A stretch of 46,011 bases of DNA from assembly GCA_017642445.1 (NCBI GenBank), contig JAGCPA010000016.1:1-46011 (forward strand). The letters run 5' to 3'. The notes under the pieces are model-generated. The model worked only from the letters and a program-made list of their open reading frames with translations. It did not search any database and was not told the DNA's origin. How positions within the stretch are numbered: the stretch's first letter is position 1; each line of letters starts with the position of its first letter. Both the position numbers and the translations under genes were made by a program. Positions 44,573-45,751 of this stretch are shown here, piece by piece. This DNA comes from Spirochaetia bacterium (GTDB lineage: Bacteria; Spirochaetota; Spirochaetia; CADAEX01).

Positions 44573-44602
44573 TTGACAACGCAAGGTTGATTTCTATATA
44601 GT
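44573..44602 (+). promoter_or_regulatory. promoter of tRNA-Leu
   Basis: Consensus TTGACA (44573-44578), an 18-nt spacer and TATAGT (44597-44602), ending 11 nt before the tRNA. Confidence 0.75.
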
Positions 44603-44613
44603 GTATTTTACCT

Positions 44614-44697
44614 GCGGCGATGGTGAAATTGGTAGACACGTTAGCTTGAGGGGCTAATGGAAGTAATTCCATGAAGGTTCAAGTCCTTTTCGCCGCA
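44614..44697 (+). tRNA. tRNA-Leu (GAG)
   Basis: An 84-nt type II tRNA with acceptor GCGGCGA/TCGCCGC, anticodon stem TTAGC/GCTAA, loop TTGAGGG (anticodon GAG), a long variable arm and discriminator A. CCA not encoded. Its last 18 nt are repeated downstream. Confidence 0.96.
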
Positions 44698-44705
44698 AAA
44701 TAAAA
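44680..44705 (+). repeat. direct repeat copy 1 (tRNA-Leu 3' end)
   Basis: 26 bp comprising the tRNA-Leu 3' end and the first flanking bases; identical to 44820-44845, exactly 140 bp away. Confidence 0.9.
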
Positions 44706-44707
44706 GA

Positions 44708-44732
44708 AACCAGCCTTGTGCTGGTTTTTTTT
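44708..44732 (+). terminator. terminator of tRNA-Leu
   Basis: AACCAGC-CTTGT-GCTGGTT with T8, starting 11 nt after the tRNA. Confidence 0.9.
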
Positions 44733-44750
44733 ATTTTAAGGCATACCAAG

Positions 44751-44829
44751 AAAGGACTTGAAACCCGGGAGCGCCGAGCAGGTGCGAGGATCAAGCGAAC
44801 CGGGGGTGGGCCGTAAGGCCAAGTCCTTT
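44751..44829 (+). other. structured module closed by the tRNA-tail repeat
   Basis: Outer arms AAAGGACTT (44751-44759) and AAGTCCTTT (44821-44829) enclose an ACCCGG/CCGGGGGT pairing and a GGCC-GTAA-GGCC tetraloop hairpin (44809-44820). The 3' outer arm belongs to repeat copy 2, so the tRNA-tail copy pairs with an inverted copy of its own core. The inside is GC-rich, unlike the surroundings. Function unknown. Confidence 0.55.
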
Positions 44830-44845
44830 TCGCCGCAAAATAAAA
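44820..44845 (+). repeat. direct repeat copy 2 (tRNA-Leu 3' end)
   Basis: Identical to 44680-44705. Includes the tRNA-Leu T-arm/acceptor 3' side but no tRNA body. Confidence 0.9.
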
Positions 44846-44870
44846 AACCCCGATTCGTTCGGGGTTTTTT
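44844..44870 (+). terminator. second terminator after the tRNA-tail copy
   Basis: AAAACCCCGA-TTCGT-TCGGGGTTTT with further T residues, placed relative to copy 2 as the first terminator is to copy 1. Confidence 0.85.
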
Positions 44871-44892
44871 ATTTCACCCAACCCCGTGCGAA

Positions 44893-45095
44893 ACAAATTT
44901 CAAAAACTATCAGCGATAACACGAACCCAGCAAAAGGCATATCCCGAGATATCTGGCTCCTCGTCTACAAGCACGTCATCCTGAACTCCAAAGAAACTAG
45001 TTCAGGATGACAATGTGGTTGTACGAGGGGTACCAGCCGATCGAGGGGTGTGTCTTATTGCTGGGTTTATTTTTTTCATTTTTTTTGAAATTTGT
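44893..45095. repeat. nested palindromic element (possible MITE/REP-type)
   Basis: 203 bp with perfect 14-bp terminal inverted arms ACAAATTTCAAAAA (44893-44906) and TTTTTGAAATTTGT (45082-45095). Inside lie AACCCAGCAA/TTGCTGGGTT (44924-44933, 45058-45067), CCTCG..TACAA/TTGTACGAGG (44959-44970, 45019-45028) and, at the centre, GTCATCCTGAACT/AGTTCAGGATGAC (44975-44987, 44999-45011). No coding sequence. Confidence 0.75.
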
Positions 45096-45099
45096 GCAG

Positions 45100-45116
45100 C
45101 AAAAATTGAAGCAAAA
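45100..45116 (+). repeat. upstream module copy 1
   Basis: CAAAAATTGAAGCAAAA, identical to 45697-45713, before the nuclease-like gene. The bases before it (AATTTGTGCA) also resemble those before copy 2. Confidence 0.7.
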
Positions 45117-45163
45117 TGAACATTTCGTGTGTATGTACATGTAGAACCATTCAGGAGGACGGT

Positions 45164-45640
45164 ATGGCAGATACCTCTAAGAAAGCTATTATTGCACGAT
45201 ACACGGACAAATCAAGATATAAACCGGAATATATTTATGGTGATGTTTATGTTGATGAGGACAGAATTATTTTGTCAAAGAAAAATAAATACGAGGAGGA
45301 AATTTTTACAATAGAACTTAATGCCGCAAAACGTTTTTCAATTTACCTGGAGAAAAACACTAACCCAGATGCAATCACACTAGATATATTCATTGATTTT
45401 AAACAGACAAAAGGTACAAACACTTCTGTAACACGACAACTTGAAAGGGGAATAGGACAGGCCGATGCTGTCTTACTAATTCTAAAAATTAAAGCCATGA
45501 AGCACAACCATGACGGCTTTGTGGTTATCATTGAGAACTTTGAAAACAATTATAAGGCTTTTATAATAAAAAAAGGGAAGCTCTCGGTTGAGAAGAACTT
45601 CCCTCTGATTGCCCGACGGCTTTCGTCCTCAGGCAATTAA
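45164..45640 (+). CDS. small protein of unknown function, possibly BECR-fold nuclease-like
   Basis: A 158-aa protein. AGGAGG lies 7 nt before the ATG at 45164; a longer frame from 45116 has no such site. Residues about 50-135 follow a pattern seen in CdiA C-terminal and phage BECR-type nuclease domains: a short strand, P-D-A, D-I-F-I-D-F-K-Q-T-K-G, then R-Q-L-E-R-G-I-G-Q-A-D-A-V-L-L-I and a final beta strand F-I-I-K-K-G-K-L. The family call is from memory of the pattern and is uncertain. No signal peptide or membrane helix. The gene is AT-rich compared with the core genes and lies in the accessory patch. Confidence 0.5.
   Translation: MADTSKKAIIARYTDKSRYKPEYIYGDVYVDEDRIILSKKNKYEEEIFTIELNAAKRFSIYLEKNTNPDAITLDIFIDFKQTKGTNTSVTRQLERGIGQADAVLLILKIKAMKHNHDGFVVIIENFENNYKAFIIKKGKLSVEKNFPLIARRLSSSGN
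45568..45603 (-). terminator. minus-strand terminator-like hairpin inside the gene
   Basis: Read on the minus strand, GGGAAG/CTTCCC with an inner TTCTC/GAGAG pairing is followed by T7. It lies within the 3' part of the plus-strand gene; no minus-strand gene feeding it is visible in the window. Confidence 0.5.
45608..45637 (+). terminator. hairpin at the end of the nuclease-like gene
   Basis: ATTGCC/GGCAAT outer and GACG/CGTC inner stems span the last codons up to the TAA. AT-rich sequence follows without a clean T run. A further AATTAAAAT/ATTTTAATT arm pair (45635-45643, 45671-45679) encloses AAATGT-CA-ACATTT. Confidence 0.45.
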
Positions 45641-45696
45641 AATATAGCTTCCAAAAAACGAAATGTCAACATTTTAATTTGTACAAACTTTTTTCT

Positions 45697-45713
45697 CAAA
45701 AATTGAAGCAAAA
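45697..45713 (+). repeat. upstream module copy 2
   Basis: Second copy of CAAAAATTGAAGCAAAA, followed after 15 nt by TATACT (45729-45734) and then AAGGAG before the frameshifted gene. Confidence 0.7.
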
Positions 45714-45751
45714 CTCACTTTTCCGTGATATACTTTAATAAGGAGTTTGCT

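Follow-up and report, generated by a model that had tools for sequence, protein, structure and literature searches.

An RtT-like structured element with host-matched ends behind tRNA and tmRNA genes of Spirochaetia

Several described bacterial systems share features with the element analyzed here. The 3'-ETS of tRNA operons, such as that of leuZ, is a sponge RNA derived from the sequence behind a tRNA. By its description, the leuZ-type 3'-ETS is a unique spacer, neither a dispersed repeat nor accompanied by tail copies, and this sets it apart from our element, although both lie behind tRNAs. Integrative elements that target tRNA genes also have a direct repeat of the tRNA 3' end beginning in the T-loop, a known crossover point of tyrosine integrases. 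Our element differs from them by an inverted copy of the T-arm and a conserved folded core, and no integrase or cargo was seen. The BIME/REP palindromic repeats are likewise short, structured, dispersed, and non-coding, but they are not known to be tied to tRNA genes or to have ends copied from a host gene, so both of these features distinguish our element from them. Some members of BIME/REP are reported to be similar to rtT (PMC2965389).

The RtT (tRNA-tail repeats; Rfam RF00391) of Escherichia coli have, at tyrT/tyrV, the same anatomy as the spirochaete element. Like our element, RtT are located behind tRNA genes, end in an exact tail copy (AATCCTTCCCCCACCACCA; ATCCTGCACGACCCACCA), contain an inverted stretch pairing with the tail, and occur in tandem. 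According to Bosl and Kersten (1991), as cited in PMC2965389, rtT is a transcript of the tyrT operon. The Rfam model for RtT matches five sites in the E. coli lysT-valT-lysW-valZ-lysY-lysZ-lysQ cluster (K-12 locus L270, NC_000913 780554-781809). A tail copy and an inverted tail were found behind the tRNA at tyrT, lysW, and lysQ, as in the element described below. At lysQ the terminator is also duplicated: the order is tRNA, terminator, inverted T-arm, core, tail copy, and an identical terminator, forming an exact repeat.

The window, i.e., the whole analyzed stretch of 46,011 nucleotides from a Spirochaetia bacterium (GCA_017642445.1, contig JAGCPA010000016.1), contains such an arrangement behind the tRNA-Leu(GAG) gene. 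Its parts are the following:

44573-44602, + strand: promoter-like TTGACA-18-TATAGT of the tRNA gene, by consensus match only
44613-44698, + strand: host tRNA-Leu(GAG) gene, CCA not encoded
44680-44705, + strand: tail copy 1, CAAGTCCTTTTCGCCGCAAAATAAAA, spanning the tRNA sequence from the T-loop to its 3' end and 7 nt of flank
44699-44735, + strand: terminator-like hairpin and T-run 1, between the tRNA and the element
44751-44762, + strand: inverted T-arm copy AAAGGACTTGAA, the 5' strand of the closing stem P1, reverse complement of the tRNA segment TTCAAGTCCTTT
44763-44819, + strand: structured core of the short subtype, by predicted fold and covariance-model match
44764-44768/44800-44804, + strand: core helix P2, predicted fold
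44771-44785, + strand: core hairpin P2a, predicted fold
44809-44820, + strand: core hairpin GGCC-GUAA-GGCC, predicted fold
44820-44845, + strand: tail copy 2, the 3' strand of P1 and the acceptor 3' strand, exact repeat
44838-44874, + strand: terminator-like hairpin and T-run 2

An earlier note, made from the sequence alone, had described a 26-bp tRNA-Leu tail repeated at 140 bp, a separate terminator for each tail copy, an inverted copy of the tail core pairing with copy 2, and an enclosed fold with a GNRA-type tetraloop. Each of these features was confirmed. The 26-nt tail consists of the last 19 nt of tRNA-Leu(GAG) and 7 nt of flank, and the recurrence of an exact 26-mer within 400 bp is not a chance event. 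The segment TTCAAGTCCTTT of the T-loop and T-stem is located at 44678-44689; AAAGGACTTGAA is its reverse complement and, over its first 10 nt, pairs with 44820-44829 in tail copy 2 as well. The fold enclosed by P1 comprises CCCGG/CCGGG, GCGCC-GAGCA-GGUGC, and GGCC-GUAA-GGCC, GUAA being the GNRA loop. The element lies on the same strand as tRNA-Leu(GAG), 3' of it, and carries the inverted T-arm and the tail copy of that host. Besides the promoter-like site of the tRNA itself, no such sites were found in a scan of the window region around the element.

For the core alone, the folding energy is unremarkable (z = -1.6). When all 177 nt are folded, the z-score is -6.4, but much of this is due to the terminators. 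Since the folding energy of the core is not significant by itself, the structural case rests on covariation among homologues. A covariance model, herein referred to as R1, was built from 20 long copies of the element. It includes the closing stem P1 (the inverted T-arm with the tail), P2, hairpin P2a, a variable hairpin P3, and P4-P5; P2 contains a tandem G.A step (X-GAGC ... GCGA-X'). A search of the element's own genome with R1 matched window positions 44749-44827 with 47.1 bits (E 1.1e-10). The window element and the copies in its genus represent a short subtype, which lacks both P3 and P5, the variable hairpins found in the long form, and has a GGCC-GNAA/GGA-GGCC hairpin in their place.

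The alignment of 117 distinct rows was fitted to the structure and hence leans toward it, but the contrast with the controls is large: pairing is seen in 91% of cells, double changes occur in 962 cells as compared to 275 after shuffling, and the covariation score is 0.589 versus 0.046-0.070 with slid partners. The sequences of the stems vary freely and the loops are constant, being AGGAN pentaloops in spirochaetes and GGGA/GUGA GNRA loops in "Deltaproteobacteria". Compensated changes in P2 were also found within the short subtype of the window's genus (GCCAC/GTGGC, AGCAC/GTGCT, and CCGG/CCGG). Covariance among homologues was one of the checks proposed in the earlier note; the compensatory changes found are massive. 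Outside P2a, G.U pairs outnumber A.C pairs 57 to 26, and within P2a one G.U pair is mostly fixed, which indicates that the tRNA-sense strand is likely the folded one. It would probably fold as RNA, in transcripts that read through from the tRNA. G.U pairs nevertheless make up only about 2% of cells, a low share for the helix of an ordinary evolving RNA; this rarity would also be in keeping with a DNA strand that folds, or with palindrome correction. A CsrA-type sponge was considered because the AGGA loops resemble CsrA sites; this candidate was rejected, since several copies have ACGA and the short forms lack such hairpins.

Another proposed check, a search for the core in its own genome, gave a second carrying locus, and these two are the only ones in that genome. 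Here, the core is found in tandem behind tRNA-Leu(CAG) (contig C98), which has a different tail; this tail is matched by the inverted copies as well as by the direct ones. In a wider scan for a 20-nt piece of the core, 40 stretches were found, almost all of them in Treponema/Spirochaetia and "Deltaproteobacteria" metagenome-assembled genomes (MAGs). The hosts among these stretches are genes for Glu, Gln, Ser, Leu, Ala, Met, Pro, Gly, Arg, and Tyr tRNAs, and most copies have the tail of their own host. Exact-core matches at L054, L058, and L082 were excluded as short chance matches in protein-coding sequence. R1 matches were found in 149 of the 395 genomes of the class, representing 63 of its 133 genera; four complete genomes have 7, 7, 7, and 21 copies. 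The element was also detected in 22 of the 297 genomes of the phylum to which one "Deltaproteobacteria" MAG belongs.

Among 118 distinct copies, 99 are located within 600 nt 3' of a same-strand tRNA called by ARAGORN, and these tRNAs have 28 different anticodons. In six further loci the element lies 3' of tmRNA genes. Nearly all the remaining copies are interrupted by the end of a contig or stand behind a tRNA 3' end not called by ARAGORN (L111, L113, L138, and L130). The sequences preceding the elements at L111, L138, and L130 are tRNA-like and were called as tRNA by neither ARAGORN nor Rfam; at least those at L111 and L130 resemble tRNA 3' parts only and are perhaps leftovers of other integrations. 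When a preference for dispensable tRNAs was looked for, the carriers in one genome (G246) were found to include the essential tRNAs Trp, Gln-ttg, and Pro-tgg.

The ends of the element match the tRNA of each copy, making the closing stem P1 host-specific. The tail copy has its start within the T-loop, at 18-22 nt from the tRNA end, and extends to that end. Matches of at least 12 nt to the own tail were found in 85 of the 99 copies, as compared to 0.4% for other isotypes. For the inverted arm, matches of at least 9 nt were found in 91 of the 99 copies, and the control with other isotypes is as high as 10.6% because the T-loop is nearly universal. The layout of the family is, in order, the tRNA, a flank often with a terminator, the inverted T-arm, the conserved folded core, the tail copy, and a flank again often with a terminator; the unit can be repeated in tandem.

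No Rfam match reaching the family threshold was found at the window element, and no Rfam family matched the element in ten loci. In particular, RF00391 had no match near the window element or in the ten element loci, and in nine element-carrying genomes it gave nothing with E below 1 (best E 1.66). In turn, R1 had no convincing match at the E. coli tyrT and lys loci. As neither model recognizes the other's family, our element is classed as RtT-like and not as RtT. The two are alike in the tandem-GA helix reported for RtT (PMC8250186), which resembles the tandem G.A step of P2. They differ in range, RtT having been described from one operon and our element using at least 28 anticodons and tmRNA. 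Several literature searches revealed no description of such a tRNA-trailing family, which thus appears to be missing from both Rfam and the searchable literature.

The tail copies start at the T-loop and bound the insert as direct repeats, as attL and attR would if a phage, an island, or an integrative element had been lost from the site. Such a scar of ordinary tRNA-targeted integration is nevertheless highly unlikely, because in many genera the insert contains a conserved, covarying core of its own, its inverted arm copies the T-arm of the host, and the copies form tandem arrays with spacings of approximately 140-390 bp. Moreover, the exact core had no matches in viral contigs, a distant blastn search against phages and plasmids gave none either, and no integrase was seen in the loci read, where the neighbouring genes were only partly identified. 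The earlier note had suggested either a trace of tRNA-targeted integration or a dispersed tRNA-linked element; the first suggestion, taken in the classical sense of a phage or island, is not supported, and the second is supported by the presence of the core behind many other tRNA genes, each time with the tail of that tRNA.

Presence of the element varies between close relatives: the site behind tRNA-Leu(GAG) is empty in one genome of the genus (G001) and in two of the family (G007 and G008). Variants of the terminator are common to species of the genus and reshuffled between them, which indicates recombination among the tails. Such shuffling would also agree with a local duplication or slippage of tail and terminator around a GC-rich fold formed by chance. 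The probability of this explanation is close to negligible, since the core matches R1 in its own genome at the E-value given above and recurs behind unrelated tRNA genes. In 12 of 54 loci with a located tail copy, this copy extends by at least 10 nt into an exact copy of the flank and terminator.

Near-identical cores were found with P1 stems that differ in both strands, and each of these stems fits the tRNA of its own locus, as for Pro(tgg) in L166 and Met(cat) in L114. A similar pair, Ser(tga) and Ser(cga) in L095, has near-identical cores with host-matched ends, and one of the two tRNAs is truncated at the 3' end. In five genomes, the nearest core belongs to another locus of the same genome for 38 of 51 copies (shuffled mean 10.3, maximum 26). 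The simplest account is that cores pass from one tRNA locus to another, by movement or by gene conversion, and have their ends remade; gene conversion in place of movement could explain the likeness of cores within a genome.

We consider it probable that an RtT-like structured element spreads among tRNA genes with its ends rebuilt from the T-arm of each target; the window contains a short-subtype copy of this element. A break in the T-loop of a tRNA gene would allow insertion of the core at that point; the local T-arm would then be copied in inverted orientation, e.g., by target-primed synthesis with snap-back onto the primer strand, and repair would duplicate the tail and flank. The duplication would keep the tRNA 3' end intact and let the matching stem P1 form. 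Arrays might afterwards grow or shrink via recombination between the repeated tails. Together, these steps would account for a constant starting point in the T-loop, for inverted arms and flanks of varying length, and for ends that match each host. Snap-back is a reconstructed step, and any mobilizing enzyme is hypothetical; the Ala(ggc) copies in L089 and L072, with an inverted arm extending upstream of the T-loop, do not fully fit snap-back. The small number of carrying loci in the window's own genome, two, also speaks against this reading.

Alternatively, the element could be a host-beneficial non-coding RNA under selection, namely a read-through regulatory or sponge RNA of the rtT or 3'-ETS type, with tail pairing that aids processing or stability. 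The conservation of the core and of its loops (AGGAN pentaloops in spirochaetes and GNRA loops in "Deltaproteobacteria"), the strong covariation, the RtT-like tandem-GA helix (PMC8250186), and the real tyrT-operon transcript rtT (Bosl and Kersten, 1991, as cited in PMC2965389) all speak for such a role. We regard it as rather unlikely, however, because copy number and host tRNA vary between genomes, close relatives lack the element, many copies are truncated (L055, L088, and L022), and whole hairpins are lost in core subtypes. Terminators also often stand 5' of the element: a terminator-like hairpin precedes it in 31 of the 54 loci, so its transcription may be weak. Most likely, the spreading element is largely a selfish passenger; a regulatory use of its RNA is possible.

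The structured element is found in over a third of the sampled genomes of the class and in a second phylum, and is apparently undescribed. RtT, an old curiosity of E. coli, becomes one example of a wider phenomenon. Tentatively, the family may represent an undescribed class of mobile structured elements that can target any tRNA or tmRNA gene, insert at its T-loop, and copy both ends from it, with snap-back giving the inverted T-arm and duplication giving the tail and terminator. Each insertion would then be tailored to its host gene and leave this gene functional, and E. coli RtT would be an outlier of the class. If the ends are indeed target-copied, the insertion process is an unusual one that spares the host tRNA, and cultured Treponema could be used to test it.

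Some minor observations were made at other positions. In L087 (839-2424), copies with a tRNA-Gly-like tail flank a gene with an ORF6N domain (PF10543), a possible cargo or insertion. In L088 (1978-2131), sub-threshold matches to the known Treponema RNAs TD-1 and TD-2 lie outside the element. The window also contains a 174-aa ORF without a Pfam match (45116-45640, + strand) and an inverted repeat GTCATCCTGAACTCC...TAGTTCAGGATGAC at 44967-45011, the surroundings of which are 92% identical in genome G005. A leader-like stretch AAAATTGAAGCAAAATGAACATTT...GTGTATGTACA, located at 45047-45160 and also at about 45690-45735, precedes small ORFs; with dozens of recurrences in the sister genomes G002-G006, it is a separate dispersed repeat.
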